NCBI RefSeq assembly: GCF_040932485.1
Contig: NZ_JBFRBH010000001.1
Coordinates: forward strand, 2,418,001-2,482,000
Source of the DNA: Gymnodinialimonas sp. 202GB13-11
Lineage (GTDB): Bacteria > Pseudomonadota > Alphaproteobacteria > Rhodobacterales > Rhodobacteraceae
DNA length: 64,000 nucleotides
Direction of reading: 5' to 3'
Position numbers and translations under genes: made by a program. Each line of letters starts with the position of its first letter. Position 1 is the stretch's first letter. Under the pieces are notes generated by a model. The model saw only the letters and a program-made list of their open reading frames with translations. It ran no database searches and was not told the DNA's origin. Positions 12,265-29,221 of the stretch are shown here, in pieces.

Positions 12265-12284
12265 TTGATTTCCCGTGCCTTATG

Positions 12285-12295
12285 CTGCATCTGCA
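12285..12295 (+). promoter_or_regulatory. TGC-rich motif in the phaC-phaZ divergent promoter region
   Basis: CTGCATCTGCA, a weaker match to CTGC-N3/4-GCAG (last base off), 21 bases upstream of the phaC start on its strand. It may let PhaR act on phaC or phaZ. Confidence 0.4.
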
Positions 12296-12373
12296 TAGTA
12301 GCGGGACCAAGGTGAGGGGGTCCACGCGACGAAATGATCCGGGTCTTCCCGGTCTCGGCGCTTGGAGTAGCTC

Positions 12374-13672: not shown

Positions 13673-13677
13673 CCTGA

Positions 13678-14256
13678 ATGGGCGAAGTGTCTTTATCTTG
13701 CCAATGCGGCGCCCTGCGGGGCACGCTGACGGAGAAGACACTGAAATCCGGCACGCACCTGACCTGCCATTGCAAGGATTGCCGCGCCTTTCAGGTGGCC
13801 GTCGGGCGTGACGATCCTGGCGCGATCGACGGTGTGCGCATTGTGCAGATCGGACCGGGGGGAATGGCGATTACGCAAGGTGTCGAGCATCTGGCTGCTC
13901 TGCGATTGTCGCCGCGCGGTCCGCTTCGCTTCTACGCCGCCTGCTGCGGGACGCCGATTGCGACAACCCCGTCGAAATTGAGCATCCCCTTTGCTGGCTT
14001 GCTGGCCGATATGGTCGAGCATCAGGATGCCTTGGGCCGGGTCCGCGCGCAGGTGAACATTACGCAGCCCGACGGCAAGGTCACGCACAAGCGCATGGGC
14101 CGCGTGGTTATGGCGCTCTTTTCAAATGCGGGTGCCGCCATCCTAAAAGGTGAACGGAAAAAGACTCCGTTCTTTGACGCTGAAACGGGGCGTCCGGTGG
14201 TTGATCCCGTGGTGATCGACAAGGTGCGGAAGGCCGAGATTTACGCACGCCTGTGA
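13678..14256 (+). CDS. DUF6151-like zinc protein related to GFA enzymes
   Basis: 192 residues. CQCGALRG, CHCKDCRAF and AACCGTPI give the cysteine spacing of the glutathione-dependent formaldehyde-activating (Mss4-like) fold, which binds zinc. The pattern with an extended C-terminal half (KRMGRVVMALFSNAG) resembles the DUF6151 group, whose function is not known to me. Starts five bases after the phaZ stop, so it is likely on the phaZ transcript. Convergent with the MetE-like gene downstream. Confidence 0.72.
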   Translation: MGEVSLSCQCGALRGTLTEKTLKSGTHLTCHCKDCRAFQVAVGRDDPGAIDGVRIVQIGPGGMAITQGVEHLAALRLSPRGPLRFYAACCGTPIATTPSKLSIPFAGLLADMVEHQDALGRVRAQVNITQPDGKVTHKRMGRVVMALFSNAGAAILKGERKKTPFFDAETGRPVVDPVVIDKVRKAEIYARL

Positions 14257-14318: not shown

Positions 14319-15446
14319 TCATAAACGCGAATTCGCCAGCTTGACGCCCTCAGACAGCGCGCCAAGCTTTGCATAGGCAATGGACGGGTCCACAGCGCCG
14401 AAGCCGGCGAAGGTGCCAAAGCCGCAATCGCTGCCCGCAATCACTCGATCCGCGCCTACAATGCCCGTGAATTTAGAAATCCGTTCGGCGACCAATTCAG
14501 GATGCTCGACAAAGTTCGTCGTCGTATCCACGACCCCCGGAACAAGGATTTTGTCGTCCGGTATTTCGCCCGCACGGTCCCGGAACACGGTCCATTCATG
14601 GGCATGGCGGGGGTTCGAGGTTTCGAACAGAAGCTGGTTCGCATTCACCGACATGAAGGTGCTGAAAACTGTTTCCATCGGCACGTCACAGATATGCGGC
14701 CCTTCGTAATTGCCCCAGCAGATATGCACCCGCACGCGCGAAGGGTCGATGCCGCTGAGCGCATGGTTCAGCGCGTCCACATGGGACGCCGCGATCTTCA
14801 CGAACTCCTCATCAGAGAGTTCGGCGAACAGCATATGACGCGACAGGGCGAGGTCCGGACAATCCAACTGCAACAGCAGGCCCGCATCTACGATGGTGCG
14901 ATATTCCTCGGCCATCGCGTCGGCCAGAGCGGCAAGATAAGCCTCTCGCGTCGGATAGAAGTCGTTTTGCAGGAACAGCGAAATCACACCGGGTGACGCG
15001 GCATTCATGAAACCTTCCGCCGCACCATGCTTGGCCATTGCGGCCTTCAGATTGTCGATATCCTTCTGCAACTCCCCCTGCCCTTTCGACCGCACCTCGC
15101 CCGTGCACATGGGTCGCGCATAGGTTGGCGTGCCGCCATCATTGGCCAGCCGCTCGAGGAAAGAGGGGAACATCTTCAGATCCGCGGGCGCATTGCGCGG
15201 GCTGTCGCCGGAAAACCCGGTATAGCGATCTTTCACGTAAGTGGCGTAGCTGATCTTGGAGGTCTCGCCATCGCTGACGATCTCAACACCAGCCTCAACC
15301 TGCTTGCGCACCGTCTCGTCCACGGCGGCCGTCATTGCAGCATCGAACGCGACCTGATCAAACGGCTGATCTTTCTCGCGTGCGAAGATGAAATCCACGA
15401 CTTCCTGCGTGCGTGGAAGCGAGCCTACGTGAGTGGTTTTGATCAT
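14319..15446 (-). CDS. Core MetE-like methyltransferase-fold protein (cobalamin-independent methionine synthase II family)
   Basis: 375 residues, only the C-terminal catalytic TIM-barrel of MetE, as in the short core-MetE family. IKTTHVGSLPR is the usual opening, VSDGE carries a substrate-binding acid, and VHICWGNYEG (His241, Cys243), LLFETSN (Glu) and AGSDCGFGTFA (Cys) supply the zinc ligands. Such proteins move a methyl group to or from a thiol; some act in pathways other than methionine synthesis. A TTG four codons earlier is possible. It is the last gene of the HisD-SnoaL-SDR-LacI unit, 35 bases after a SnoaL-like gene, so a catabolic demethylation role is conceivable but unproved. Confidence 0.82.
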   Translation of the reverse strand: MIKTTHVGSLPRTQEVVDFIFAREKDQPFDQVAFDAAMTAAVDETVRKQVEAGVEIVSDGETSKISYATYVKDRYTGFSGDSPRNAPADLKMFPSFLERLANDGGTPTYARPMCTGEVRSKGQGELQKDIDNLKAAMAKHGAAEGFMNAASPGVISLFLQNDFYPTREAYLAALADAMAEEYRTIVDAGLLLQLDCPDLALSRHMLFAELSDEEFVKIAASHVDALNHALSGIDPSRVRVHICWGNYEGPHICDVPMETVFSTFMSVNANQLLFETSNPRHAHEWTVFRDRAGEIPDDKILVPGVVDTTTNFVEHPELVAERISKFTGIVGADRVIAGSDCGFGTFAGFGAVDPSIAYAKLGALSEGVKLANSRL

Positions 15447-15481
15447 TTTGGTCCCCAATCCTTGTCCCTGTTGTCTCTATA

Positions 15482-16465
15482 TCAGACTTCGGCCAGCAGG
15501 ATCTGCTTCCAAACCGACGTTTCATCGAACAGCGTATATTCGCGGCGCAATTGCGGCTCTGCCCCGCCCAGTTGCCCGAATTCCGCATGGGTGCAGCCAA
15601 GCACATAGACCATGGCACCCGTGGGCACACCAAACATACCCCAGCCCTCATGCTTGCCCCAAAGGCTCCACCTGACGGCGGCACGAGGGGCCATGTTCTC
15701 ATCGTCCATCCCGACCTGGTGGTCGATCTTGAATTCCGCGTTCGGGAAACTGGCACGCAGGCCCATCCAGAAACGATCCGCCTCTGCCGTGCCGTGACCC
15801 GTCACATGGCCCGGATATTCCAGATGGCAGGCGCGGTCGTAAACCTCTGGAATCGCTGCCATATCCGCACCCATGATGCGCGTCAGCGTCTCGGCCAGCT
15901 TCGCACCCCACGGGTTGTCATTGCCGCGCCCCTTGTACGGACCTTTCATGTCATTTTCGGGAGTCAGAGGCCGCACGCACGCATCGCGCCCGCCTTCGCG
16001 CTCAATCAGATCAGCGGCATACGCCTTCGGCTCCCACCCCAGCTGCTTCACGATGGCGGTCTGGTCGCGGATCAGCCATTCATCGTCGATCGCATTGTTC
16101 TTGGCGTGGCAATCCGCAAGAATCCGGTACTGCAACTTCTTGCCCGTCGCGGCACCATAGACGCCGTCACCGCCATGGGTCGCCTGGCTGATGATGCGGT
16201 GAGAGGACAGCATCCCTTCCTCCGGCGTGCCGGACCAGATCACATCTTCACCCAGCAAAACGCGGTCCGGGAACTCGGCCAATGTCGCCATGGTCGCGGC
16301 GATAACCCCCTGATTGCCAACAACAATCGAGGCTGGCGATCGCACCACAATATCCTTGGCATAATACTCATGCAGGGTCGCAATCCCGCGATCCTCCCAA
16401 ATCTCTTTGGTGATCCCGATGATATAGTCGGGAAAATCGCGGAACTTGTTCGAGAAGCCGATCAT
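15482..16465 (-). CDS. Tandem SnoaL-like (NTF2-fold) protein, 327 aa
   Basis: Two alpha+beta-barrel NTF2/SnoaL-like halves: residues about 10-110 (IWEDRGIATLHEYYAKDIVV) and about 190-310 (IPEVYDRACHLEYPG, GLRASFPNAEFKIDHQVG). Single-domain relatives include polyketide cyclases, ketosteroid isomerase and dehydratase-like enzymes. It is a distant paralogue of the protein at 18330-19277 in the same unit. It begins six bases after the LacI stop codon. The chemistry is not predictable; isomerisation, dehydration or binding are all possible. Confidence 0.72.
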   Translation of the reverse strand: MIGFSNKFRDFPDYIIGITKEIWEDRGIATLHEYYAKDIVVRSPASIVVGNQGVIAATMATLAEFPDRVLLGEDVIWSGTPEEGMLSSHRIISQATHGGDGVYGAATGKKLQYRILADCHAKNNAIDDEWLIRDQTAIVKQLGWEPKAYAADLIEREGGRDACVRPLTPENDMKGPYKGRGNDNPWGAKLAETLTRIMGADMAAIPEVYDRACHLEYPGHVTGHGTAEADRFWMGLRASFPNAEFKIDHQVGMDDENMAPRAAVRWSLWGKHEGWGMFGVPTGAMVYVLGCTHAEFGQLGGAEPQLRREYTLFDETSVWKQILLAEV

Positions 16466-16471
16466 TGGGCC

Positions 16472-17485
16472 TTATCCTTTAGTGGTGCGGGCCGAGCCGC
16501 GTACAATCAGCTCTCCCTGGATTTCAGTCACAGTGCCCGGCGGGCGGGCCTGTTCTATTTCATTGAGGAGCGTGTCTACCGTGGCCTCGACCATGCGGTT
16601 CACCGGTTGGCGCAGAGTCGTCAGGTCATAGGCGGGCCAGGCGGCCATCGGCACATCATCGTAGCCGACGACACTGACGTCGCCGGGCACATCCAGCCCC
16701 ATCTCAAAGCGCAGCATGTCCAGCACACCAAGGGCCATGTGGTCATTGCCCACGAAAATCGCGTCGGGCGGTTCGCTTTCCAGCATCATCGCGCGCGCAG
16801 CCTCAGCCGCCTTCTCGCGCCGGAACCTCGCATCATATTCCGCGTGCAGGGCCACACCTGCCGCCTCTAGCGCTTGCACGAAACCTTCCCGCCGATCCTT
16901 GCCGGTCGAGGCCCCAAGCCAGCCTGAAATATGCGCAATTCGCTTATGGCCGGCATCCATCAGGAACTCTGCCACTGCAGCCCCGCCGACCTTGTTGGCC
17001 GAGGTCACAGCACTCAGGCCCGACCCCTCGATCCCCCGGTTGAACAGCATCACCGGAATGCCGGCGGCCCGGCACCGATCCGTCAACTCGCCAGATAGGT
17101 TGATCGAGGCCGTGATGATCCCATCAACCTGATAGTCCATCAGATCATCAATCACGCTTTCCACGTCTCCGTCGCTGTTTCCGGCAAGGAAAACAAGGAT
17201 ATGGTAGCCCCGCGCCTGCAAGGCTGCGCTGAGTTTTTCCAGCGCATCGGGGTAAAACGGATTGTCCAGATAGGCCACAACCAGCCCGATTATCCGCGAT
17301 CTGCCGGTGATCAGCGACCGCGCAAGTACATTGGGCCGATAGCCCAGATCATCCGCCGCCTTGCGTACCCGGTCGGCCATTTTCTTCGACACGCTCGCCC
17401 CGGGCGTAAACACCCGGCTCACTGCCGATTGGCTGACCCCTGCACGTTTGGCCACGTCGACCGAAGTGATCTTCCGATCCGCCAT
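16472..17485 (-). CDS. LacI family transcriptional regulator (second unit)
   Basis: 337 residues. The HTH and hinge are at residues 5-60 (TSVDVAKRAGVSQSAVSRVF, then DDLGYRPNVLARSL), followed by a sugar-binding-protein-like domain (IGLVVAYLDNPFYPDALEKLS; VVGYDDVPMAAWPAYDLTTLRQP). Its start overlaps the SDR stop (TGATG), so it is expressed with the genes it probably controls. The likely operator is the TTTTGCA-N6-TGCAAAA palindrome ahead of the HisD-like gene. The effector is unknown. Confidence 0.9.
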   Translation of the reverse strand: MADRKITSVDVAKRAGVSQSAVSRVFTPGASVSKKMADRVRKAADDLGYRPNVLARSLITGRSRIIGLVVAYLDNPFYPDALEKLSAALQARGYHILVFLAGNSDGDVESVIDDLMDYQVDGIITASINLSGELTDRCRAAGIPVMLFNRGIEGSGLSAVTSANKVGGAAVAEFLMDAGHKRIAHISGWLGASTGKDRREGFVQALEAAGVALHAEYDARFRREKAAEAARAMMLESEPPDAIFVGNDHMALGVLDMLRFEMGLDVPGDVSVVGYDDVPMAAWPAYDLTTLRQPVNRMVEATVDTLLNEIEQARPPGTVTEIQGELIVRGSARTTKG

Positions 17486-18240
17486 CAGCCCGCCGTCCAG
17501 CCGCCGTCAACGAGAATGGAGGTGCCCGTGACCATAGCGGAGGCATCTGAGGCCAGAAACAGAACCGCGCCCATCAGGTCTTCGACTTCTGCAACGCGCG
17601 GCAGTTTGATCTTCGACTCGATCCACGCGCGCTTTTCAGGATCGGCAAAGGTGGGTGCGGTCAGCTCAGTCCGCACGAAGGTTGGGCAGATCGTATTGAC
17701 CCGGATATTGCGCGGCCCCCATTCGATTGCCATCGATTTGGTCATGCCTTCGACCGCGTGCTTCGTGCCGCAATAAACGGCGCGATCCTGTCCGCCGACA
17801 TGCCCCATCTGGCTTGAGATCTGGATGATCGAGCCGCCGTTTTCCATCCCACGCGCCGCGAATTGCGCCATGAAGTACGCCGCGCGGACGTTGATATTTG
17901 TGACGGCATCAAAGTCTGACGGATCCGTTTCCAGCGCCGGGGAATGCCGCGCCAGCCCGGCGGAGTTGCACAGAATGTCGAGCGGGCCAAGCGCCGCGAT
18001 GGCGGCCTCCATCGCGTTCAGATCCGTGACATCGAGTGAGATTCCATCCGCCTGATACCCCGCATCACGCAGGCTTTGCGCAGCACCCTCCACCTGATCC
18101 GCATTACGCGCAGCCAAGGTCACATGCGCCCCGGCCTCAGCCAAAGCAGCCGCACATCCCAGCCCGATCCCGCGCGACCCGCCGGGCACAAAGGCACGCT
18201 TTCCAGTCAACGAAAAGGAAGGGGTGCGGGGCAGTGTCAT
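17485..18240 (-). CDS. Short-chain dehydrogenase/reductase
   Basis: 251 residues, a classical SDR. The cofactor motif is VPGGSRGIGLGCAAAL (T replaced by P in TGxxxGxG), NSAG is the NAG-equivalent, the catalytic Ser is in IQISSQMG, and YCGTK gives Tyr and Lys. The C-terminus (GTSILVDGGWTAG) is standard. It oxidises or reduces an alcohol/ketone with NAD(P). Together with the HisD-like dehydrogenase it suggests a multi-step polyol or hydroxyacid oxidation in this unit. One-base overlap with the LacI gene. Confidence 0.9.
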   Translation of the reverse strand: MTLPRTPSFSLTGKRAFVPGGSRGIGLGCAAALAEAGAHVTLAARNADQVEGAAQSLRDAGYQADGISLDVTDLNAMEAAIAALGPLDILCNSAGLARHSPALETDPSDFDAVTNINVRAAYFMAQFAARGMENGGSIIQISSQMGHVGGQDRAVYCGTKHAVEGMTKSMAIEWGPRNIRVNTICPTFVRTELTAPTFADPEKRAWIESKIKLPRVAEVEDLMGAVLFLASDASAMVTGTSILVDGGWTAG

Positions 18241-18329
18241 ATCAGGTCCTCGATCAAGTCTTGTTCGAAATAGTCAAAAATTTCCGGCATATCTGTGGAT
18301 AAGTCTACATCCGCTACGTGAATTTGATA

Positions 18330-19277
18330 TCAAACAGACAGCTCCCGCATGCGCGCCAGAACATCCACACCCAGTTGCGCGTAAACATGCAGCAGGTCCA
18401 CCAACACCCAATTCTCCGCAATCTTTCCCTCTTCGATACGCCAGAAATCAAGGCTGCGCATCTCCAACTTTTGCCCAGCGCCCGGCAGGCCAAGCCAGGA
18501 TCCGCCGGTCAAACTCACATCCATGCCGGGCCACCCCGTGAACCCCACGTAATTGCCCTCGGCAAACAAATGCCCCTCATCCATCCGGGCGAAGCGATCT
18601 GGCATTCCGCCCAAGAACGGCGCTTGATGGTGTTTGCGAAAGCCGTCGATCCCGCGCGCAGTTCCAATACCGGATGGACCGTACCAGGACATATGCTCAT
18701 GCCAGTACTGCGCCATCGTCGCGCGCGGCGTGCCGGCAGGGTCATTTCCCAAACCGTTCAGCATATCCTCGACCGTCTTCAAGGCCGCTGCCCCATCCCC
18801 CGCCACGCGCAGGCCGTCCTGCGTGGCCGGACCCGGCACATGGAATTCGCGCCCCAAAGAGGGTGAGAGCGGCCAAACCCCCGCCTGCAACATCAGCTCC
18901 GGCAGGTCCCAAAGCGACTGCATCTCAACTACCGCGCCGTCTTCCACGCGGAAAAAGTCGTGAAACCGCATAACGGCCATCCGCTGCGTTGGCGGGATGT
19001 CCATGAAGGGGGCCACGAAAAGCCCGCACCAATATCCGCCCTGCCCGACCCAAAGCTGACCGTTTCCATCACGCCCCGCCATTTCGATGGTCACACGGCG
19101 TTCCAGATCGGGAAAGGCGGCCGCTAAATCATCCAGCACCGCGCCATAAGCGGCCAGATCCAGCGTCTCGAACGGATGCGCCAGATGCACCGGACATCCA
19201 GCCTTGGCGACGTCTTCCAACCGTCCGCTCTTCCGAACCCCGCTCAATAGCTCTTTCGCCTGCAGCTCTTCGCTCAT
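18330..19277 (-). CDS. SnoaL-like / ester cyclase family protein, 315 aa
   Basis: Start at the ATG preceded by GGAACAAAG. Two NTF2-fold halves again: an N-terminal one (AFPDLERRVTIEMAG, MRFHDFFRVEDGAVVEM) and a C-terminal one (MAQYWHEHMSWYGPSGIG, LDFWRIEEGKIAENWVLVD). The latter is typical of the SnoaL-like ester cyclase group. Paralogue of the protein at 15482-16465, though similarity is low. Sits between the HisD-like and SDR genes; the 80-bp gap before it contains a G-rich hairpin element. Function unknown. Confidence 0.75.
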   Translation of the reverse strand: MSEELQAKELLSGVRKSGRLEDVAKAGCPVHLAHPFETLDLAAYGAVLDDLAAAFPDLERRVTIEMAGRDGNGQLWVGQGGYWCGLFVAPFMDIPPTQRMAVMRFHDFFRVEDGAVVEMQSLWDLPELMLQAGVWPLSPSLGREFHVPGPATQDGLRVAGDGAAALKTVEDMLNGLGNDPAGTPRATMAQYWHEHMSWYGPSGIGTARGIDGFRKHHQAPFLGGMPDRFARMDEGHLFAEGNYVGFTGWPGMDVSLTGGSWLGLPGAGQKLEMRSLDFWRIEEGKIAENWVLVDLLHVYAQLGVDVLARMRELSV

Positions 19278-19324
19278 CTTTGTTCCAAAAATATGCCGGG
19301 GGTTAGGGGGCAGCGCCCCCAAAT

Positions 19325-19342
19325 GGGGTGGGCGGGCGGGCC
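19325..19342 (+). repeat. G-rich hairpin element, copy C
   Basis: GGGGTGGGCGGGCGGGCC, four G-runs separated by single bases, inside a self-complementary stretch (19325-19353, arms GGGGTGGGCGGG and CCCGCCCTACCCC). A smaller hairpin (GGGGGCAGCGCCCCC, 19306-19320) lies just before it. The element lies between the HisD-like and SnoaL genes, so on the minus-strand transcript it is the C-rich form. Related copies are at 44435 and 53801. Confidence 0.7.
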
Positions 19343-19357
19343 CGCCCTACCCCAAAC

Positions 19358-20683
19358 TCATTCCGCTGCGTCCCGATAAGGCGCGCCCTCGCCATACGGA
19401 ACATTCAGCCCACCGTACCGGCGTACGCGGACGTTGCACTGCTCGGCATGGCCCACAAAGCCTTCCAACATGCACAGGCGAGAGCCATATTCGCCCACCA
19501 GCGTCGCCGCCTCATCCGTCACAACCCGCTGATACGAATGGGTTTTGATGAACTTTCCGACCCAAAGACCACCGGTATAGCGACCGGCTTTCTTCGTGGG
19601 CAGCGTATGGTTGGTGCCAATCACTTTATCGCCGTTCGCCACATTCGTGCGCGGCCCGAGGAACAGCGCGCCGTAGTTGGTCATGTTGTCGAGGAACCAG
19701 TCATCGCGGTCCGTCATCACCTGAATATGCTCGGACGCGATATCCTCAGACACCTCCAGCATTTCATCATAGCCGTCGCACAGGATGATCTCGCCATATT
19801 CCTCCCAGGACACGCGCGCGGTCTCAGCGGTCGGCAAGATCCCCAAAATCCGCTCGATCTCAGCCATCGTATCGTCGGCCAGTTTCCGCGAGTTGGTGAT
19901 CAGCACCGCAGGCGAATTGTATCCATGCTCCGCCTGCCCCAGCAGGTCAGTCGCGCACATTTCACCATCCACAGTCTCATCCGCGATCACGCAGGTCTCC
20001 GTCGGGCCAGCGAAAAGGTCGATACCAACCCGTCCGAACAACTGCCGCTTGGCCTCCGCCACAAAGGCATTGCCCGGCCCCACCAGCATATCGACCGGCT
20101 TGATCGACTCTGTCCCGATCGCCATCGCGCCCACGGCCTGAACGCCACCCAGCACTAGAATCTCATCTGCGCCGCCTTCATGCATCGCGGCGACAATTGC
20201 AGGATGCGGCTTGCCGTTCACCGGCGGGGCAGAGGCCACCACCCGCTTCACGCCCGCCACCTTGGCCGTCAACACCGACATGTGGGCCGACGCCACCATC
20301 GGGAACTTGCCACCGGGCACGTAGCATCCCACTGAATTCACAGGGATATTCTTATGGCCCAGGATCACGCCCGGGATCGTCTCAACCTCGATATCCGTCA
20401 TCGAGGCCCGCTGCGCCTCGGCGAACCGCCGGATCTGCGCCTGCGCGAAGCGGATATCATCCATCTCGCGGGTTGTGACCTGCTGCATCGCCGCTTCGAT
20501 CTCGGACGGAGTCAGGCGAAACGCCTCGGGCTCATAGCCGTCGAATTTGGCCGAAAGCTCTTTAACCGCCGCATCCCCGCGCGCCTCGATATCGCCCAGA
20601 ATGCCCTCCACGATGCCGCGAACCTTCGCGTCATCCTCCGCACGCTCTTCGGCTGGTTTGCCGCGCTTGAGATATTCAGCCAT
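19358..20683 (-). CDS. Histidinol-dehydrogenase-family NAD-dependent alcohol dehydrogenase (HpsN-like)
   Basis: 441 residues. The HisD fold and metal site are intact: Gln250 and His253 (GQAEHG), Asp352 (NGDKVIG) and His412 (FVGHAEQ) as zinc ligands, and Glu318-His319 (SEHIQV) as the general base pair. Differences from biosynthetic HisD (GPTET for GPSE, AEHG for AEHD, EHIQVMT for EHLEI) resemble the paralogues that oxidise polyols such as sulfopropanediol (HpsN). With no other his gene nearby and an operon full of catabolic genes, a role in oxidising a polyol or hydroxyacid is more likely than histidine synthesis. First gene of its unit; strong GGAGG before the ATG. Confidence 0.85.
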
Positions 20684-20746
20684 CTCTTCCCTCCAGATTC
20701 CTCGTCCGGAGGGAGGATACAGGCCGAAAATTCACCTTCAAGTCAT

Positions 20747-20766
20747 TTTTGCATACGATTGCAAAA
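20747..20766. promoter_or_regulatory. LacI-type operator upstream of the HisD-like unit
   Basis: TTTTGCA (20747-20753), six bases, TGCAAAA (20760-20766): a 20-bp hyphenated palindrome 64 bp before the HisD-like start. The size and symmetry suit a LacI-family dimer. It differs from the AAACCGGTTT sites at 28175 and 28207, so the two units probably answer to different LacI proteins. Confidence 0.6.
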
Positions 20767-20788
20767 TGCTGCGCCGCGGCACTCTCTG

Positions 20789-21811
20789 CTAGCGGATCGC
20801 CAAACCATCCCCGCCGAAGTAATGCCGCTTCTCTTCGGGGAACATCAACCCCACCGCATCACCGGGGCGCAGCGTGCTTTCGCCATCGGTGCGGACGGTC
20901 AATTTGCCCGCTGCACCGCAATCGACAATCAGGAAGATGTCCGCGCCAAGGTATTCGGCCACGTCGACTTTGCCGTCTATCGCGCCTTCGCCCGCAGCAC
21001 CGATCCCAATCGCCTCAGGCCGTACACCCAGATGCGCCGCATTGCCGGGCATACCATCCAGTCGCAATCCATCGGCAGGCAGATTGATCACGTTCATCTT
21101 GGGCGAGCCGATAAACTGCGCCACGAATAGGTTGTCAGGATGATCGTAAAGCTGTTTCGGCGAGCCCACCTGCTCGATCCGGCCCGCGCTCAGCACCACG
21201 ATCCGGTCGGCCAGCGTCATCGCCTCTACCTGATCGTGGGTCACGTAGACCATCGACGCTTTCAACTGCTGGTGCAGCTTCGCAATCTCATACCGCATCT
21301 CGACCCGCAGCGCGGCGTCGAGGTTCGACAGCGGCTCATCAAAAAGAAACGCCGTGGGATCACGCACAATCGACCGGCCAATCGCCACGCGCTGACGCTG
21401 TCCCCCCGACAAATCCTTTGGCCTACGCTCGAGATACTCCTCCAGCCGCAACGCGCGCGCGGCCTCGGCCACCTTCTCTTGCTGTTCGGCCTTGGAGGCC
21501 CCCGCCGTCTTCAGCGAAAAGCCCATATTCTCGGCCACAGACATGTGCGGATACAAAGCGTAGCTCTGGAACACCATCGCCAGCCCGCGCTTACTCGGTG
21601 GCTCCGCCGTCGCATCGCGCCCGTCGATCATCACCTGCCCGCGAGAGGTTTCCTCCAGCCCCGCGATCATCCGCAGAAGCGTGGATTTCCCGCAGCCCGA
21701 CGGCCCCACGAAAATGACAAACTCACCATCGTTGATCGTCAGGTCCACCCCTTTGATGACCTGCACCTCGCCGTACCATTTCTCAACGGCCTTCAGTTCA
21801 ATTGCACCCAT
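20789..21811 (-). CDS. Sugar ABC transporter ATP-binding protein, MalK/UgpC type
   Basis: 340 residues from the ATG two bases after the glycosidase stop. Walker [11 protein letters not shown]-loop [12 protein letters not shown], signature [14 protein letters not shown], Walker [13 protein letters not shown]-loop VTHDQ, and a C-terminal TOBE-type domain ([20 protein letters not shown]). This ATPase drives the two permeases in the same operon; MalK-type subunits can also serve several importers. Last gene of the first LacI unit. Confidence 0.95.
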
Positions 21812-21812
21812 G

Positions 21813-23105
21813 TCAGCTCTCCCGTGCAGAGGGGGAGGCCCAGTCGAGCCACACCGCCGCAGTCCATGTGAAAGTTCCTCCACCCGCCGGCGTGCCATCG
21901 ACGGGTGAGAAGTATTCGGCAAATCCGCGATCCGCGATCAGCTTTGCCGTGTCGCGTCGAATGCGGTCGGCCTGTGCTGCAAGGCCGGCCTCTGCCATGC
22001 CATTTGCGGCCATGTAGTTCATGATCGCCCAGACCGGTCCGCGCCAATAGCGCAGATGGTCGAATTGCGGTCCCGCCGGATCGTAGCTGGGAAGCGCATA
22101 TCGCGCGCGATCCAATACACCATCCAGCGTGGCACGCGCGGCCTCCTTGTCGATCCCCGCCCACCAGCACAGAAAGCCTGCATTGCTCACTGATCCCGTG
22201 AAGTTCCCGGTGCGCAGATTGCGCCCTTCGTAGCTTTGCGTTTCAGGGTTCCACAGCGTCTCGGCGCCCGCTTCCAGCGTGGCGATCCAATCGTCGACCT
22301 GCGTCCGGTCTTCCCCCAGCAGATCAGCCACGTCCCCCAGATCCCGCGAGGACCGCAAGCAAGTGAACGTCATGGTCGGATCGGCCACCCGGAATGGGCT
22401 TTCTTCGGCGATCTTCGCATCGTCCCAATCGCGATCCCGCCCGAATTGCACGAGCCAGATATAGCGGTCGTAATCGGCTTGCGTTGGCCGCATCTTGGCA
22501 TCCACATGGCCCGTGTCTCGGCGCGTATAGGGCTGCACCCCAACCGGGTCGATCCCGGCCATGGCCTCATCCCAATCCGGTGCATTGTCCCGGCCCGCCT
22601 CCCACGGATGGGTAATGCAGACCGCGCCACTTTCCGCGCGCGCTTCCATCATCCAGCGGTGGAAGGCCAGCATCTTGGGATAAAGCGCGCGAAGCCGAGC
22701 CTCCCCCGCGTCCGGGTCGGATCGATAGACCCGCCAAGCGAGGGATGCGGCAACCGGTGGCTGGCTGATCCCCGAGGACGGCACAGTCTGCGCCCCGCGC
22801 CCAACCGCGTTTTGCGTGCCCCAAACGTCCGGCCCGGGGAAATACCCCTCGTCGACCACATGGAACAGGATATGCGGCACCATGCCGTTGTCCCATTGCG
22901 CGGCGAAAAGCGTCTCCAACTCAGTCCAGGCGCGATCCACGTCAAAGGTCGCAAACCCGATGGCCGCAAAGGCGCTGTCCCAGTTCCATTGGTAAGGGTA
23001 CAGCCCCGCCGTCGGCACCGTATACCCGCCTTTGTCATTCAGGCGAAGGATGCGGCGGGCCTCTTCATCCAGCGGCCCGGTGTTCAAATCAGTCATATCC
23101 TTCAT
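21813..23105 (-). CDS. MGH1-type (GH63-like) glycoside hydrolase
   Basis: 430 residues, an (alpha/alpha)6-barrel glycosidase. [26 protein letters not shown] (candidate acid Asp173), [14 protein letters not shown] and a Glu in [11 protein letters not shown] are the landmarks of the mannosylglycerate-hydrolase-like group. No signal peptide is seen, so the substrate would be imported first and cut in the cytoplasm. Relatives cleave mannosylglycerate or glucosylglycerate, common compatible solutes, which would give a sugar plus glycerate; the true glycoside is not known. Start overlaps the permease stop (ATGA). Confidence 0.82.
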
Positions 23106-24310
23106 CCTTTCACACTCCCTGCTGTCAGGCCCTTGGTCATGAATTTCTCAAGCCCGAGGAACAGCACCATCACCGGCACCGTGGCGATCACCGCACCCGC
23201 CATCAGATGCTGGCGCGGAATTTCCGAGGAGTTGAGCGACGCGATCCCCCGCGTCAGCGTGAAGATCTGCGGATCATCCAGCAGCATGAACGCCAGCAGA
23301 AATTCGTTCCATGCGATCATGAAGACATAGAGCGACACCGAGACCATCGCCGGAAGCGACAGCGGCAACGTGATCTTCCAGATCACCTGAAGCCGGTTGA
23401 GACCGTCCATCAGGCCCGCTTCTTCCACCTCTGCGGGGAGGCCGCGGAAGTATCCTTGCAACATGTAGAGCGCCACGGGGATCGTCGTGACCGGATAGAT
23501 CATCACGATACCGATGATCGTGTTACGCAGACCCGTTTGCGAGAAGACGATGTAGATCGGCAGCGCCAGAACGATCATTGGCACCATATAGATCAGAAGG
23601 ATCGACCGGCTGAGCGACTTCTGCCCCTTGAACCGCAACCGCGCGACTGCATAGGCGCCGGGCACGCTGAATAGCAGCGTCACGAAGACGGTGATCACCG
23701 AGATGTAGAAACTCGTCCACATGTAGCGACCAAAGTTGAAGTCGCGGAACAGCTCGTCATAGCTGCGGAACAGGTCCCAGCCTCGGCTGAGGTCGATGGA
23801 ATAATCCAGCGGGTTGGCGATCAGTTCCCCTTGGGTTTTCATCGAGGTCAGCACCATCACGTAGAACGGGATGAACACCGCCGCCGTGAAGAAGATAAAG
23901 CCGAAGCCGGTGAGGAAACGGATCACCGCCTCCTCCCATTCGTGCCGCGTCATCGCGCCGGACGGCGCATCCCGCAGGATCGTGGCCAGCGACAATCCCA
24001 TGGCGAGGCCGAAGAACACAGCCATCGACAGATGCGCACCAAGCCCAAGCGTCTCGCCCACATGTACCGGCGACAACGGCGTATAGCTCAGCGCCAGCGC
24101 CAAGGCTGCCCCACCCGCCGACAACACCCAGCCCGAGCGCACATGGAACGCCGCCGCCCCTAGCCCCGCGCCCAAGATTAGGCAACCGAACAGACCGGGC
24201 CGGAACGCTTCCCCGGTGGAGAAGCTGAGGATCACAGCCACCGTCGTTGCCACGATGAAGGCCCAAAGGATGCCCAGAACCGGGCCCGTCACATATCCCT
24301 GACGTACCAT
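23102..24310 (-). CDS. Carbohydrate ABC transporter permease, MalG type with N-terminal extension
   Basis: 402 residues, about 120 longer than usual MalG-like permeases. The normal core starts near residue 130 (FLTGFGFIFFTAAVFIPFYVM), with the EAA loop EEAGLMDGLNRLQVIWKITLP near residue 300 and the usual C-terminus ([13 protein letters not shown]). Before it lie four additional hydrophobic helices (for example LGILWAFIVATTVAVILS and LSMAVFFGLAMGLSLATI). Their role is unknown. Forms the membrane channel with the MalF-type partner encoded just upstream; it starts one base after that gene's stop codon. Confidence 0.93.
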   Translation of the reverse strand: MVRQGYVTGPVLGILWAFIVATTVAVILSFSTGEAFRPGLFGCLILGAGLGAAAFHVRSGWVLSAGGAALALALSYTPLSPVHVGETLGLGAHLSMAVFFGLAMGLSLATILRDAPSGAMTRHEWEEAVIRFLTGFGFIFFTAAVFIPFYVMVLTSMKTQGELIANPLDYSIDLSRGWDLFRSYDELFRDFNFGRYMWTSFYISVITVFVTLLFSVPGAYAVARLRFKGQKSLSRSILLIYMVPMIVLALPIYIVFSQTGLRNTIIGIVMIYPVTTIPVALYMLQGYFRGLPAEVEEAGLMDGLNRLQVIWKITLPLSLPAMVSVSLYVFMIAWNEFLLAFMLLDDPQIFTLTRGIASLNSSEIPRQHLMAGAVIATVPVMVLFLGLEKFMTKGLTAGSVKG

Positions 24311-24311
24311 C

Positions 24312-25544
24312 TTACAGGCCCTCCTCTTTCGACATGAACTTGAAGAACGCCCACGAGAAGCACAGCAGGCAGCACAGGATCACCACGGCCACCGCCGCGC
24401 CCGCACCGATATTCGAGACCGCGAAGGCCTGCTCATACACATTCACCGTCAGCGTCCGCGTGCCTGCGTTACCGCCCGTCAGCAGGAAGATGTCGTCGAA
24501 CTTGTTGAACGTCCAAATGAAGCGCAGCAGGAACAGGACCGACAGGATGCCCATCAGCATCGGCAGGCTCAGGTAGCGGAACTTCTGGAAGGGCGTGGCC
24601 CCATCCACATCCGCCGCCTCATACATGTCGGTGTCAATCGATTGCATCCGCGCGAGTATGAACAGGAACGAGAGCGGGAAGTACCGCCAGATCTCGAACA
24701 CCGTCACCATGATCAGCGCGTTGGGCCGGACCCCGAAGAAGTTGATTGGGCTGTCCACCACGCCCATTTGCACGAGCAGCGCGTTGATGGAGCCCGAGGT
24801 CGGGTCAAACAGGATCACCCACGAAAACGCCACGGCGATCACCGGGGCCACGTAGGGGAATAGGTAAAGGCCCCGCAAAACGCCCTGCCCAGCGAAACTC
24901 TTGTTCAGCAACAGCGCTGCAAACAGGCCCACAACCAGCGCGCCGATTGTGCCGACAACCGTGTAGAACAAGGTGGCAAAGATCACCGACCAGAATTCAC
25001 GGGCTTCGAAAATGTCGCTGAAATTCTCCAACGTGAATTCACCGCTGGTCAGAACGTTCGTGGCATCGCCCGTGATTTCCACCGGCGTGTCATCCTCAAT
25101 CGCGTCCTCGAGGCTCGCCTCGAAGGTCGCGGGGATTTCCAGCGTCACACGCTCACCCGCGCCCAATTCGTCATAGCTGCAGGTCAGGGTTGCCCCATTA
25201 ACCTCGCAGGCTTCGGGCAAGTCCGTCAGGGCAACACCATCCGGCAACACATCGGTCAGCACCACATTCCCGATTGGGTTGTCCTGACTGGGGTTGCGGA
25301 TGCGGTAGCGGATCAACTGATCCGGGTCGCCCACATTGCGCACATCCTCACGCACCACGGGCGCGGCAGGGCGCAGATCGGCCAGACCCACGGGTTTGAA
25401 GGAAATCCAGATGATCGCCAATAGCGGCAGCAAAACCACCAGCATCACGGCGGTCAGCGTGGGCAGGAGAAGACCCCAGGCCAGCCGCGCCTCGCGTTTG
25501 GCCAGCGGGCCCGTGCCCTTGGGGGGGGTGGCAGTATCAGACAT
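24312..25544 (-). CDS. Sugar ABC transporter permease, MalF type with DUF11-like insert
   Basis: 410 residues from the ATG at 25544. TM1 is at about 22-48 and TM2 at about 185-210; between them is an insert of about 110 residues predicted to lie outside the membrane. Residues 74-140 have the pattern of a DUF11 repeat: IRYRIRNPSQDN, NVVLTDVLPDGV, a Cys113-Cys122 pair flanking VNGATLT, then LGAGERVTLEI. The rest is a normal binding-protein-dependent permease with an EAA-type loop (AADVDGATPFQKFRYLSLP). The insert could contact the solute-binding protein, as the MalF P2 loop does, though it is in a different loop. Confidence 0.92.
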   Translation of the reverse strand: MSDTATPPKGTGPLAKREARLAWGLLLPTLTAVMLVVLLPLLAIIWISFKPVGLADLRPAAPVVREDVRNVGDPDQLIRYRIRNPSQDNPIGNVVLTDVLPDGVALTDLPEACEVNGATLTCSYDELGAGERVTLEIPATFEASLEDAIEDDTPVEITGDATNVLTSGEFTLENFSDIFEAREFWSVIFATLFYTVVGTIGALVVGLFAALLLNKSFAGQGVLRGLYLFPYVAPVIAVAFSWVILFDPTSGSINALLVQMGVVDSPINFFGVRPNALIMVTVFEIWRYFPLSFLFILARMQSIDTDMYEAADVDGATPFQKFRYLSLPMLMGILSVLFLLRFIWTFNKFDDIFLLTGGNAGTRTLTVNVYEQAFAVSNIGAGAAVAVVILCCLLCFSWAFFKFMSKEEGL

Positions 25545-25580
25545 GGGGCGCGTGCTCCCGATGGATAAAAGGGGGGTGTC

Positions 25581-25601
25581 CGGGGGCCGCACTGGCCCCC
25601 G
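25581..25601. other. Hairpin between solute-binding protein and permease genes
   Basis: CGGGGGCC (25581-25588), GCACT, GGCCCCCG (25594-25601): a perfect 8-bp stem in the 130-bp gap. Hairpins here are known in other sugar importer operons to protect the binding-protein mRNA or weaken read-through, so that the binding protein is made in excess over the permeases. There is no T-run, so full termination is unlikely. Confidence 0.6.
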
Positions 25602-25674
25602 AGCGTTCTTGTCGGGCGAGGCATAGGCCCCGCCCAGGATCGTGTCGATTTACGCGGTCACCCGGAACGGGTGC

Positions 25675-27033
25675 TTACTCAATCGCGCCGAGTTCTTCGT
25701 TCATCAGCGCAACGGTTTCTTCGGCCGAGCGCACACCATCCACATATTCGCGGACAAGGCGGTTGATGATCTGGCTGTTGATGATGCGGCTCGACAGGGC
25801 CAACTGGCCTTCGGCCACACCCCAACGCTGTGCCACATCAAGGCCGCCGACGATCTCATCGATCATCGACTGCTCATAAAGCTCACCCAGAGGCGCGCGG
25901 CGATCCACACCCACGTCCAGTGCGGCCCAGGCTTCCACGAACTGCGTCGGGTTCTCTTCCGTGCCGCGGCGGATCGGGAACTTGCCCTCCGGTGCGATGG
26001 CAAGCGTCGCGGTGTAGCCGTCGTTCATCGAATACTCGACAAAGGCCATGGCCGCATCGGTTTCGGCATCTGCCGTGATACCGAAGTAACGCACGTCACC
26101 CCAAGCTGCACCGTCAGGGTTCGACGGGCCGGAGAAGTTGGTCACGATACCCGTAGCCGCCGCGAGATCGCGGGAGGTCGGATCATCGTTGATCGTGGGC
26201 GGGGCGCTGTCGCGCAGACCGGCCAGCTCATCAAGGATGAAGGGCGACCAGATGATCATCGCCGCGTTGCCCGAGAAGTAGAGCGTGCGGGACTGATCCC
26301 AGTACAGCTCACCCTCAGGCGAAGCCTCAACGATGCCACGGTAGAATTCCAGCACCTCAACGGTCGCTGCTTCGTCAAAGCCCGAGAAGCCATTCTCGTC
26401 CACCGGCGACGCGCCATTGGCGAGGAAGACATGCTCCAGCACCTGAGACATGAAGTTTTCATCGACCTTCGTGGGTGCGACGAAGCCATACATCTCTGGC
26501 GGATTGTGCAGCGCTTCCACGGCGGCCATCACGTTGGCGTAGCTGTTGGGCGGCTCAAGGCCCGCTTCCGCGAACAGGTCGGCGCGATAGACCAGCATCT
26601 GTGTCCAGCCATCGACCGGCACAGCGGCATAGCCACCATCGACCGCAGCCATTTCCAGCGCGCCCGAAGCGAAGGTGTCGCCGCCGAGGTTTTCGATCAC
26701 GTCCGTGGCCGCGTCGCTATCCAGAATGCCGGCCTCATACCAAGGCAACGCGTATTGCAGCGTGTGGTAGATCACGTCCGGCAAATCGCCTGCCGCGAAA
26801 GCAGCCGTGGCGCGTGTGCCCAGATCGCTTTCGGTGACCGGGATCACTTCCACTTCGATGCCGGTCTCTTCCGTAAACGCAGCCGCCATGGCCTCCTGAC
26901 GCTCTAGGCGCTCAGGCTGCTCTTCCGTGGTCCAGAAGCGGATCGAGTCCTGCGCCGCCGCGACGCTGGCCATCGCCAGCCCCGAGACCGCCGCCAGAAG
27001 CGCGATACGTCCTGTGGTTTTGAGATTGGTCAT
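25675..27033 (-). CDS. ABC transporter solute-binding protein (family 1, sugar type)
   Basis: 452 residues. A Sec signal peptide (ALLAAVSGLAMASVAAAQD, cleavage after AAA or AQ) sends it to the periplasm. The mature part follows the family 1 pattern: WTTEEQPERLERQEAMAAAF, then DLPDVIYHTLQYALPWYEAG, a hinge at VPVDGWTQMLVYRADLF and MIIWSPFILDEL. It would bring a sugar or glycoside to the MalF/MalG-type pair. Very strong ribosome site AAAGGGAGG. Starts 22 bases after the LacI gene. Confidence 0.95.
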   Translation of the reverse strand: MTNLKTTGRIALLAAVSGLAMASVAAAQDSIRFWTTEEQPERLERQEAMAAAFTEETGIEVEVIPVTESDLGTRATAAFAAGDLPDVIYHTLQYALPWYEAGILDSDAATDVIENLGGDTFASGALEMAAVDGGYAAVPVDGWTQMLVYRADLFAEAGLEPPNSYANVMAAVEALHNPPEMYGFVAPTKVDENFMSQVLEHVFLANGASPVDENGFSGFDEAATVEVLEFYRGIVEASPEGELYWDQSRTLYFSGNAAMIIWSPFILDELAGLRDSAPPTINDDPTSRDLAAATGIVTNFSGPSNPDGAAWGDVRYFGITADAETDAAMAFVEYSMNDGYTATLAIAPEGKFPIRRGTEENPTQFVEAWAALDVGVDRRAPLGELYEQSMIDEIVGGLDVAQRWGVAEGQLALSSRIINSQIINRLVREYVDGVRSAEETVALMNEELGAIE

Positions 27034-27055
27034 GCCTTTCCTCCCTTTGGTTTTA

Positions 27056-28144
27056 TCAGGCGTTCAGCTTCGCCCGGGCCAGTTGGTCCGGGTCGAAATC
27101 AGGTAAAAGATCAGATTGCCGCGCGATCAGATGCGCCGGGGCAAGCTCTCTCAGATGGGTCAGGTCGATGCCGCGAATGCGTGCAATCAGCAGCCGCGCG
27201 AGGCGTTGGCCGGCGGCTTTGTTATCGACCGAGAAGGTGGTCAGCGGTGGGTTTGCGACCGCCGAATCCGGGATGCCGTCATAGGCGATCACTGCGAGGT
27301 CGCGGCCCACTTGCCGCCCCATGCTCTCCGCCGCGCGGTAAAGTCCCAGGGCTGCGAGGTCGAGCGCGCAGACGACTGCCGTTGGCGGCATGTCAGCCGA
27401 CAGAATCTTCCGGCCAGCCGCCTCCCCCGCGGCAATATCCAGCACCCCTTCCGCAATCGTCGCGGGGTCTGCCACCAGCCCAGCTTCTTCCATACCGGAG
27501 AGGAAGCCGTCATAGCGCAGATGTGCGTAGGTGTAGTCGCGTGATCCGTTAATGAACCCGATGCGCTTATGCCCGAAGCCCGCCAGCCGCAGCACGGCCA
27601 ACCGCATCGCATCCTCGCCGGAAATGTCATACCAGGCGCATCCCTCCGGGTCGCCGGTGCGCCCATAAAGGATAAACGGCACCCCGCGCGCCTTGCACAA
27701 GGCCACGCGCGGATCGTCGTACATCGCACGCGGCAGGATGAACCCGTCCGCCTTCCGCTCGTCGATCAGACGCCCCATGGAGGTCACTTCATCATCCACC
27801 CCCGTGGCGGTCGAAACGGTCAGCGTCCAGCTCTCTTCCGAGGCCGCGCGGCTGATCCCGTCGAGGAAATCGGTCAGGAACGGGCGGTGCAGATCGGCGT
27901 TACCGGTATTCAGAACCAGCCCCAGCGACCGGACCCGCCCGGTGCGGATCGCCTGCGCCTGCGCCAGCGGGCGATAGCCCATCCGCTCCGCCGTCCGGGT
28001 GACGCGCGCACGGGTGGATTCCGCGATATCCGGGTAGCCGTTCAGCGCGCGGCTGACCGTCCCTTTCGCCAATCCCAACGCCTCGGCCAGATCATTGATC
28101 GTGACCCTTTGCGTCGTTCCATTGGATGCGCCGTTCGGTTGCAT
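27056..28144 (-). CDS. LacI family transcriptional regulator (glycoside uptake unit)
   Basis: 362 residues. HTH and hinge: TINDLAEALGLAKGTVSRAL then GYPDIAESTRARV and MGYRPLAQAQAIRTGR. The effector domain is ordinary (LGLVLNTGNADLHRPFL; IAYDGIPDSAVANPPLTTF). It is the first gene of the importer operon, so probably autoregulated through the two AAACCGGTTT operators just upstream. Ribosome site GGGGAGGAA. The inducer is presumably the imported glycoside or its hydrolysis product. Confidence 0.92.
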   Translation of the reverse strand: MQPNGASNGTTQRVTINDLAEALGLAKGTVSRALNGYPDIAESTRARVTRTAERMGYRPLAQAQAIRTGRVRSLGLVLNTGNADLHRPFLTDFLDGISRAASEESWTLTVSTATGVDDEVTSMGRLIDERKADGFILPRAMYDDPRVALCKARGVPFILYGRTGDPEGCAWYDISGEDAMRLAVLRLAGFGHKRIGFINGSRDYTYAHLRYDGFLSGMEEAGLVADPATIAEGVLDIAAGEAAGRKILSADMPPTAVVCALDLAALGLYRAAESMGRQVGRDLAVIAYDGIPDSAVANPPLTTFSVDNKAAGQRLARLLIARIRGIDLTHLRELAPAHLIARQSDLLPDFDPDQLARAKLNA

Positions 28145-28174: not shown

Positions 28175-28190
28175 CCGAAACCGGTTTCGG
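28175..28190. promoter_or_regulatory. LacI-type operator O1 upstream of the importer operon
   Basis: CCGAAACCGGTTTCGG is a perfect 16-bp palindrome with the central CG step typical of LacI-family sites, 31 bp before the LacI start. A second site is centred 32 bp away, close to three helical turns, so both face the same side of the DNA. Confidence 0.8.
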
Positions 28191-28206
28191 CAACGGAAAA
28201 TCGCAA

Positions 28207-28222
28207 TCGAAACCGGTTTTGG
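28207..28222. promoter_or_regulatory. LacI-type operator O2 upstream of the importer operon
   Basis: TCGAAACCGGTTTTGG, two mismatches from O1 and sharing the CGAAACCGGTTT core. Spacing to O1 suggests cooperative binding or promoter occlusion. Confidence 0.75.
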
Positions 28223-28249: not shown

Positions 28250-29221
28250 TTAGTTTAGGGTCTCTCGTAGCCAGTTCGTGATGTCTTCGACGGCCCTATC
28301 AGTCGTTGCAGGGCTTAAGATTTCACCTGCAATTACATGGTGAAACGGGTCGCCGCCCTCTTCCGGAACGGCCACGGGAATGAGGGTCGTATCACCGCCC
28401 CAGCCTTCGGCAAATTCGCGTGCCGCAGGCGCAGAAATCACCTGATCCGTGTCCGCAAACATGAACAAGGCAGGGATCGAAACGCCCGAATAATCCCGTC
28501 CCCGCGTCTCTCGTAGAAGCGTTCCCATCGAAACCGTGGCCACCGTTGGGTACTGAGTCGTCCAGTACGTTTCGTGCCCCTCGTTGATCGGCTCAAAGCT
28601 GCGTTCCGCGCCCGCGATCCACGGAACCCAGACCCTTGCACCGAACAATTCCAGAAGCGGCCCTGCTGGGTTCGCCACCTCGATATTGGGTGAGATCATC
28701 ACCACCGCCTCAACCGCCTCGGCATGTTCCGGCTCAACCAACACGTAAGCCGCCAACGTGGCCCCGGTCGACGTGCCCATGACGATCACCTCGTCGCCCA
28801 CAGACCGCGCGATCTGCAGGAACAACTCGGCATCTGCCACCCAGTCACCCGCCCGCGCGTCACCCAAGGCGGCACCGCTACGGCCATGGCCGGTCAGCCG
28901 TGCGAAAACCAGGTTTGCGCCAAATTGCTCGGCGACACGGTCCGGAACGGGGCGGATTTCCTCTGACGTCGCCGAGAAGCCATGCAGATACAGCACCACG
29001 GTCTCTGTCCGCGCGCCTTCTTCCCCGGCCCAGACGATCCGCGCCTCCGTCCCGGGCGTGATGTCATCGGCATTTTCGCGCGCCGCCAGATAGCCCACCG
29101 GGTCGCTGAATTGCGCTTGCGCCTCCCGCTCGATCCCCTCACCGGGGACAAAGATCACAACGCCCAGCAAAACGCCGAGCGCGATCAGAAGGCGCCCCAA
29201 CCACTTGCCGAACTTACGCAT
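28250..29221 (-). CDS. Alpha/beta hydrolase, membrane-anchored or exported
   Basis: 323 residues. The N-terminus WLGRLLIALGVLLGVVIFVPG is a signal anchor or signal peptide. The fold shows LYLHGFSATSEEI (oxyanion strand), nucleophile Ser in MGTSTGATL, acid Asp in FADTDQVISA and His in DPFHHVIAG. Probably an esterase or lipase of the periplasm or inner-membrane outer face. It overlaps the upstream hydrolase gene by 8 bases; the two are one transcript. Substrate unknown. Confidence 0.85.
   Translation of the reverse strand: MRKFGKWLGRLLIALGVLLGVVIFVPGEGIEREAQAQFSDPVGYLAARENADDITPGTEARIVWAGEEGARTETVVLYLHGFSATSEEIRPVPDRVAEQFGANLVFARLTGHGRSGAALGDARAGDWVADAELFLQIARSVGDEVIVMGTSTGATLAAYVLVEPEHAEAVEAVVMISPNIEVANPAGPLLELFGARVWVPWIAGAERSFEPINEGHETYWTTQYPTVATVSMGTLLRETRGRDYSGVSIPALFMFADTDQVISAPAAREFAEGWGGDTTLIPVAVPEEGGDPFHHVIAGEILSPATTDRAVEDITNWLRETLN

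Follow-up and report, generated by a model that had tools for sequence, protein, structure and literature searches.

What do the twelve genes at positions 14319–28144 of a 64,000-nucleotide stretch of Gymnodinialimonas sp. 202GB13-11 DNA (the window; host genome, 4.0 Mb) do, and do they act in one pathway or in two? All twelve lie on the minus strand, unit 1 first (LacI1, solute-binding protein (SBP), PermF, PermG, MGH and UgpC; 20789–28144) and then unit 2 (HisD, SnoB, SDR, LacI2, SnoC and MetE-like; 14319–20683). A first-pass annotation made from the sequence had this gene content, order and strand right, and the families that we obtained with Pfam and NCBIfam agree with its assignments. It also had unit 2 process the aglycone of a glycoside imported and cleaved by unit 1. 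We consider it quite probable that the region instead consists of two adjacent, separately regulated catabolic systems, with unit 1 a glycosylglycerate importer and hydrolase and unit 2 one of three loci of a LacI2 regulon. The separate operators, the separate importers and a conserved operon around unit 2 are supported by computation.

Unit 2 is most likely a fragment of a longer conserved operon that has its own, unrelated CUT1 importer and is split over three loci in this genome. In Ruegeria sp. THAF33, orthologues of its genes (identity: HisD 78%, SnoB 51%, SDR 62%, LacI2 57%, SnoC 76%, MetE-like 81%) belong to a 16-gene cluster that starts with a divergent SnoA, followed by UgpC, SBP, PermF, PermG, SnoS, HisD and SnoB, and continues with SDR, LacI, SnoC, a cupin, a methyltransferase, MetE-like, an alpha/beta hydrolase and RraA. 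Similar operons were found on plasmids of Paracoccus, Marinovum and Octadecabacter and in a Halomonas. Compared with the unit 1 importer, the Ruegeria importer matches over partial length, at 24% identity for the permeases and 27% for the SBP, and at 45% for the ATPase; with the SBP identity extending over 127 amino acids, the unit 1 SBP is not orthologous to that of the unit 2 importer. The Gymnodinialimonas genome encodes SnoA', UgpC' (73% identity) and SnoS (86%) near 1.05 Mb, and SnoA'', SBP' (61%), PermF' (69%) and PermG' (73%) near 0.14 Mb. The cognate SBP has a counterpart at E ≤ 1e-30 (43–68% identity) in each of the 14 genomes with unit 2 genes that we searched. A scan of named genomes with a SnoC alignment gave at least 570 relatives, of which the best 80 were kept (the 80 named loci). 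According to gene calls, these contain SnoC in 74 cases and HisD in 67, and a cognate-type SBP adjoins in 66, versus a single locus (L122) with a unit 1-type SBP and MGH.

The features of unit 2 are:

20747–20766, minus strand: predicted LacI2 operator TTTTGCAATCGTATGCAAAA, one of three genome-wide sites with at most one mismatch
19358–20683, minus strand: HisD/HpsN-like dehydrogenase (Pfam Histidinol_dh, 446 bits)
18330–19277, minus strand: SnoB, tandem SnoaL/NTF2 protein (Pfam, AlphaFold2, Foldseek)
17485–18240, minus strand: SDR oxidoreductase (PF13561, 207 bits)
16472–17485, minus strand: LacI2, putative regulator of the dispersed regulon (LacI/Peripla_BP_3; 57% identical to the LacI of the Ruegeria operon)
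15482–16465, minus strand: SnoC, tandem SnoaL protein (Pfam; 76% identical to the Ruegeria copy)
14319–15446, minus strand: MetE-like protein, cobalamin-independent synthase II family (Meth_synt_2, 47 bits)

The predicted operators separate the two units in the same way. With at most one mismatch, the LacI2 operator (TTTGCAnnCnTATGCAAA / TTTGCANNCNTATGCAAA) occurs at three sites in the genome, which are unit 2 and the two cognate-importer loci (0 for the backwards control). A strict version of the pattern gave 10 exact sites in 9 of 149 family genomes, again with 0 for the backwards control; 9 of these sites have a SnoB gene at a distance of no more than 10 kb, and the remaining one (G059) is just upstream of UgpC in the same type of operon. 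The operator core TTGCAnnCGTATGCA is invariant in all six aligned upstream regions. A palindrome like TTTTGCAnnCGTATGCAAAA stands before HisD in the window and in four relatives, and in three plasmids before the cognate importer's UgpC gene. It also precedes the two other loci of the window's genome. Unit 2 does directly follow unit 1, as had been annotated, with 105 bp between UgpC and HisD, and this gap carries HisD's own LacI2-type operator (20747–20766). By eye, it also contains a promoter-like TTGAAG...TATCCT, which is present in L046 and L102 as well. The LacI1 operator AAACCGGTTTCG has three matches genome-wide, all at 28176–28219 (one palindrome is counted on both strands; 1 for the backwards control). 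Its exact form GAAACCGGTTTC is found upstream in 29 of 44 unit 1 SBP loci of relatives, and in 32 of 44 if two mismatches are allowed (L122 and L244 among the 44 are one genome). At the latter threshold, the LacI2 operator is present in 1 of the 44, namely L081, where HisD comes next. We infer that LacI1 and LacI2 bind their predicted sites. LacI sugar regulons generally have palindromic operators and sugar-transport targets. The predicted regulons share both properties with those described by comparative genomics (PMC4052901), in whose main text the term "SnoaL" is absent.

For unit 1, we identified the following features:

28176–28219, no strand assigned: two predicted LacI1-type operators, AAACCGGTTTCG (genome-wide pattern search)
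27056–28144, minus strand: LacI1, putative unit 1 regulator (NCBIfam LacI-family matches; 51–66% identity within relatives' MGH operons)
25675–27033, minus strand: SBP (nearest solved chain YcjN, 8vqk, 91 bits)
24312–25544, minus strand: permease PermF with an extra stretch (BPD_transp_1 and a sub-threshold DUF11 match)
23102–24310, minus strand: permease PermG (BPD_transp_1)
21813–23105, minus strand: MGH-type GH63 glycosidase without a signal peptide (PF22422 MGH1-like GH, 374 bits)
20789–21811, minus strand: UgpC-type ATPase (ABC_tran and TOBE_2)

The glycosidase matches PF22422 far above its cut-off (374 versus 27 bits). Its N-terminus has no hydrophobic leader and it is therefore predicted to be cytoplasmic, in agreement with the first-pass annotation, whose proposal that unit 1 imports a small glycoside and hydrolyzes it inside the cell gains support from the active site and the gene neighbors. 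It is closer to Thermus thermophilus MgH (355 bits) than to mycobacterial glucosylglycerate hydrolase (GgH, 217–225 bits). It scores 351.7 bits against the NCBIfam model for glucosylglycerate hydrolase (NF047898), below the cut-off of 550, and was therefore not filed as a GgH in the strict sense. It resembles both T. thermophilus MgH (4wva-c) and GgH of Mycolicibacterium hassiacum (MhGgH), which belong to GH63, in its length, its Pfam domain and its catalytic Asp/Glu; it differs from them in being encoded within a CUT1 importer operon. In an alignment read by eye, it retains all 13 catalytic and substrate-binding residues named in the available excerpts of the MhGgH study (PMC6608630), which are Tyr36, Trp40, Trp42, Asp43, Tyr88, Gln115, Gly180, Asp182, Arg216, Tyr222, Tyr375, Trp376 and Glu419. 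We also fetched 56 stretches around MGH genes (approximately 5 to 20 kb each). Downstream of the operon in L082 are genes of the D-lyxose/D-mannose isomerase and glycerate 2-kinase families, both above their Pfam cut-offs and below the NCBIfam ones. The isomerase family gene is near MGH in 3 of the 56 loci (L082, L089, L092) and the kinase family gene in 2 (L082, L233). The Gymnodinialimonas genome has a relative of the isomerase (71% identity) at 0.53 Mb, unlinked to unit 1. From the active-site residues and these few neighbors, the substrate is probably mannosyl- or glucosylglycerate, and mannosylglycerate is favored because mannose and glycerate are its products. Red algae make mannosylglycerate, also known as digeneaside.

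CUT1 importers often carry neutral glycosides, and together with the missed GgH cut-off this leaves some room for a neutral glycoside (glucosylglycerol, for instance) as the unit 1 substrate. We consider this improbable, since the residues that contact glycerate in MhGgH (Tyr36, Trp40, Tyr88, Arg216 and Tyr375) are among those retained, and both L082 and L233 have a glycerate 2-kinase family gene next to the operon. In addition, MhGgH did not cleave glucosylglycerol, according to the excerpts of its study consulted here (PMC6608630). A glycosylglycerate remains our preferred substrate, and unit 1 would give a concrete route for the turnover of mannosyl- or glucosylglycerate.

Could the two units still form one pathway, in which the aglycone that unit 2 degrades comes from a glycoside taken up and cleaved by unit 1? 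Besides the missed NF047898 cut-off and the presence of an isomerase or kinase gene at only 4 of the 56 MGH loci, several results weigh against our assignment of the region to two separate systems. Allowing up to two mismatches, the search gave no LacI1-type site at 12 of the 44 unit 1 loci, and read-through from unit 1 into HisD may occur. While 51 of the 56 unit 1 stretches lack a unit 2 homolog, 5 contain one (L081, L097, L218, L220 and L244), so the units are not unlinked in all relatives, which was the outcome that the first-pass annotation had named as fatal to its pathway. In L081, HisD, SDR and LacI2 occupy the same slot and junction as in the window. In L244 (the same genome as L122), SDR and SnoC come directly after unit 1 and no LacI2 operator was found within the locus; some products may therefore be shared. 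L218, from another genus, has a SnoA homolog next to unit 1 (12797–13801; 51% identity with the Ruegeria SnoA), at a distance of 2.4 kb from MGH. In L220, HisD and a cupin gene (3.7 kb and 2.8 kb from LacI1, respectively) are followed by three genes that by eye resemble a molybdate importer, and then by unit 1. In L097, SnoB is about 17 kb away and the MGH there has a different type of importer. For comparison, 54 MGH loci checked for xsc, soe, pta and tauE genes had none. Also, SnoB and MGH tend to occur in the same genomes: among 394 sampled family genomes, 85 have both, 78 only SnoB, 41 only MGH and 190 neither, for an odds ratio of 5.05. For comparison, the odds ratio is 2.79 for SnoB and Xsc and 1.22 (not significant) for MGH and Xsc; all of these values ignore phylogeny, and the SnoB matches include paralogs.

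Despite these links, we regard a single pathway as unlikely. Neither a shared importer nor a shared operator was found for the two units. The unit 2 operator is shared with the cognate importer at two other loci, the SBP of that importer was detected in every genome searched and adjoins most of the named loci, and 78 and 41 genomes have just one of the two markers. In the congener G378, unit 2 alone occupies the slot between homologs of the genes that flank the region in the window (10438–14256 and 28250–29963), and unit 1 is on another contig, so that both units are present but unlinked. The HisD-like enzyme, moreover, lacks the HpsN motif as given in the available part of its source (below). 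The proposal that unit 2 processes the unit 1 aglycone was therefore not upheld, and the neighborhood search suggested with it gave a mixed result, with the cognate-type SBP present at 66 and the unit 1-type SBP at 1 of the 80 unit 2 loci on one side, and the unit 2 homologs at 5 of 56 unit 1 loci on the other. L102 (Roseicyclus) has no unit 1 at that slot either, and in L047 and L055 an MFS-type gene occupies it instead. L050 and L059 also have a homolog of this gene close to the unit, and the copy in L047 is a GPH symporter family match below the NCBIfam cut-off. For the co-occurrence of the two units, our preferred explanation is a shared source of substrates, and the units may share some enzymes. 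As a separate observation, L122 (2669–10960) joins unit 1 to SDR, a LacI2 remnant and SnoC, a possible case of recruitment.

If the two units are separate systems, they might work as follows; every reaction, as well as both substrates, we infer from protein families and gene context. Unit 1 would import an alpha-glycosylglycerate, most likely mannosylglycerate (digeneaside) and/or glucosylglycerate, and hydrolyze it in the cytoplasm to a hexose and glycerate, with LacI1 acting as a local regulator at GAAACCGGTTTC. Unit 2 would be one locus of the dispersed LacI2 regulon, whose other two loci would add further SnoaL proteins and the CUT1 importer. Through this importer, the cell would take up a sugar- or polyol-like compound, in which the HisD-like enzyme might convert a CH2OH group to a carboxylate by a four-electron oxidation. 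The SDR could oxidize or reduce a second position, the several SnoaL enzymes could perform acid/base or C–C chemistry (dehydration, isomerization or retro-aldol cleavage), and the MetE-like zinc protein could remove a methyl or alkyl group, with a thiol as the acceptor. That unit 2 acts on something sugar- or polyol-like is suggested by the importer types (CUT1, and GPH-like at the L047 slot) and by the nearest solved SBPs; these SBPs are sugar or polyol binders and, at 63.5 bits or less, too distant to name the ligand.

For the HisD-like enzyme, the first-pass annotation pointed to HpsN-type paralogs. The nearest solved relative is HpsN, a sulfopropanediol 3-dehydrogenase (398 bits; HisD, 247 bits), but the sulfonate-recognition motif does not fit. 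Where HpsN has GRY[AS]H and HisD has GSAPL, according to the available portions of PMC11382572, the window enzyme and 66 of 68 orthologs have GKFPM. By this motif it falls in a third group, although it exceeds the cut-off of the TIGR00069 hisD model (432 versus 244 bits), belongs to the same Pfam family as HpsN and HisD, and has catalytic Glu/His and zinc-ligand residues that align with theirs. Since the HpsN motif, as far as that source defines it, is replaced, 2,3-dihydroxypropane-1-sulfonate (DHPS) was set aside as the unit 2 substrate.

The relationship to the DHPS dehydrogenase nevertheless raises another possibility, that the substrate of unit 2 and its regulon is an algal metabolite, sulfonated and sugar- or polyol-like, whose sulfur is released as sulfite or sulfoacetaldehyde. 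Of 123 core loci, 6 lie beside soeABC-like and/or xsc/tauE genes (the cognate-importer loci of G081, G105, G123, G140 and G173, and the operon of G015; not all of the 6 are from different genomes), while xsc, soe, pta and tauE genes were absent from all 54 MGH control loci. Xsc exceeds its NCBIfam cut-off and TauE its Pfam cut-off; the soeABC-like genes, which no model names, we presume to encode SoeABC. The odds ratio of 2.8 between SnoB and Xsc points the same way. However, GKFPM replaces the recognition motif in nearly all orthologs, 117 of the 123 core loci have no such neighbor, and 5 of the 6 that do came from the second batch of fetched loci and may share one ancestral island. In the window's genome, xsc and a soeA-like gene are more than 200 kb from all three regulon loci. 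As xsc and a soeA-like gene are common in the family anyway (247 and 287 of 394 genomes, respectively), a sulfonated substrate stays a minority reading, and we consider it rather unlikely.

An algal solute that is sugar-like and sulfonated or methylated is a possible, if doubtful, substrate for unit 2. Our broadest conjecture, which we hold with little confidence, is that the LacI2 regulon encodes a marine pathway, widespread and undescribed, for an algal solute that is sugar- or polyol-like and sulfonated and/or methylated. The GKFPM-type HisD would turn its CH2OH into a carboxylate, a set of SnoaL enzymes would take the carbon skeleton apart, the MetE-like zinc enzyme would remove a methyl or alkyl group, and the sulfur would pass to SoeABC/Xsc. 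If so, the association with glycosylglycerate uptake would stem from a shared algal source. Several other candidates were set aside. Mycosporine-like amino acids were a guess for which a literature search gave nothing relevant. Two demethylation clues were not used: the DmdA-like gene in L177 (368 bits, cut-off 410), and the MtoX-like, AcuI-like and DmdA-annotated genes near the operon in L042, because L042 looks like an ordinary dimethylsulfoniopropionate (DMSP) island. Recurrent extra genes (galactonate-dehydratase-like at 12 loci, GMC oxidoreductase at 6 and, by eye, GST-like at 4) did not settle the substrate either.

Whatever the substrate, the operon is common, with a SnoB relative in 163 of the 394 family genomes (E ≤ 1e-20, paralogs included). 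Our literature searches found no paper describing the unit 2 operon or its set of enzymes, which for unit 2 supports the earlier remark that no described pathway with this combination is known. So widespread a pathway, equipped with an importer, a regulator, an operator and roughly twelve other genes but with no substrate in the literature that we searched, suggests that the metabolite is abundant and its breakdown undescribed. With the regulon and a likely binding protein now defined, the substrate of unit 2 is directly testable.

Both SnoB and SnoC have SnoaL domains (Pfam), and an NTF2-like fold is predicted for SnoB (AlphaFold2 model, pLDDT 89). The best Foldseek matches of this model were IdmH, AclR and a SnoaL-like protein from Jannaschia; the ten best rows have a probability of 1.00 and TM-scores (by target) of 0.59–0.73, and the best 50 of 812 matches are mostly generic SnoaL/NTF2-type proteins. 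The predicted fold is that of SnoaL-type polyketide cyclases and hydroxylases (IdmH, AclR, SnoaL2), but unlike these, the window's SnoaL proteins are tandem double-domain proteins, with several per regulon, in a catabolic operon. MetE binds zinc through a His-Cys-Glu-Cys set of ligands. The MetE-like protein keeps this pattern of the core MetE / cobalamin-independent methionine synthase II family (H245, C247, E279 and C345 are invariant in 12 of 12 alignment rows), whereas it differs in its catabolic context and in missing the NCBIfam equivalog cut-offs (at best 93.3 versus 406 bits).

By our reading, the likely starts of four genes differ from those of the longest open reading frames (SnoB, 19277; UgpC, 21811; PermF, 25544; MetE-like, 15446). 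The extra stretch of PermF (24312–25544) has a weak DUF11 match (21.9 bits, cut-off 24.6), which would not be expected within a CUT1 permease. Between HisD and SnoB (19278–19357), the window has a GC-rich, hairpin-forming repeat resembling repetitive extragenic palindromic elements, parts of which recur at 12 other places in the genome. On a Vibrio pelagius plasmid (L040:1265-10903), four SnoaL-type genes flank a CUT1 importer next to sarcosine oxidase genes. On a plasmid of the haloarchaeon Halobellus limi (L043:8479-14872), five consecutive SnoaL-type ("ester cyclase") genes are followed by a MetE-like gene, and the array lies downstream of an ABC importer. Finally, a 210-amino-acid protein without a Pfam match is encoded between SnoB and SDR in L047 (10329–10961), with homologs near unit 2 at the loci of 7 relatives.

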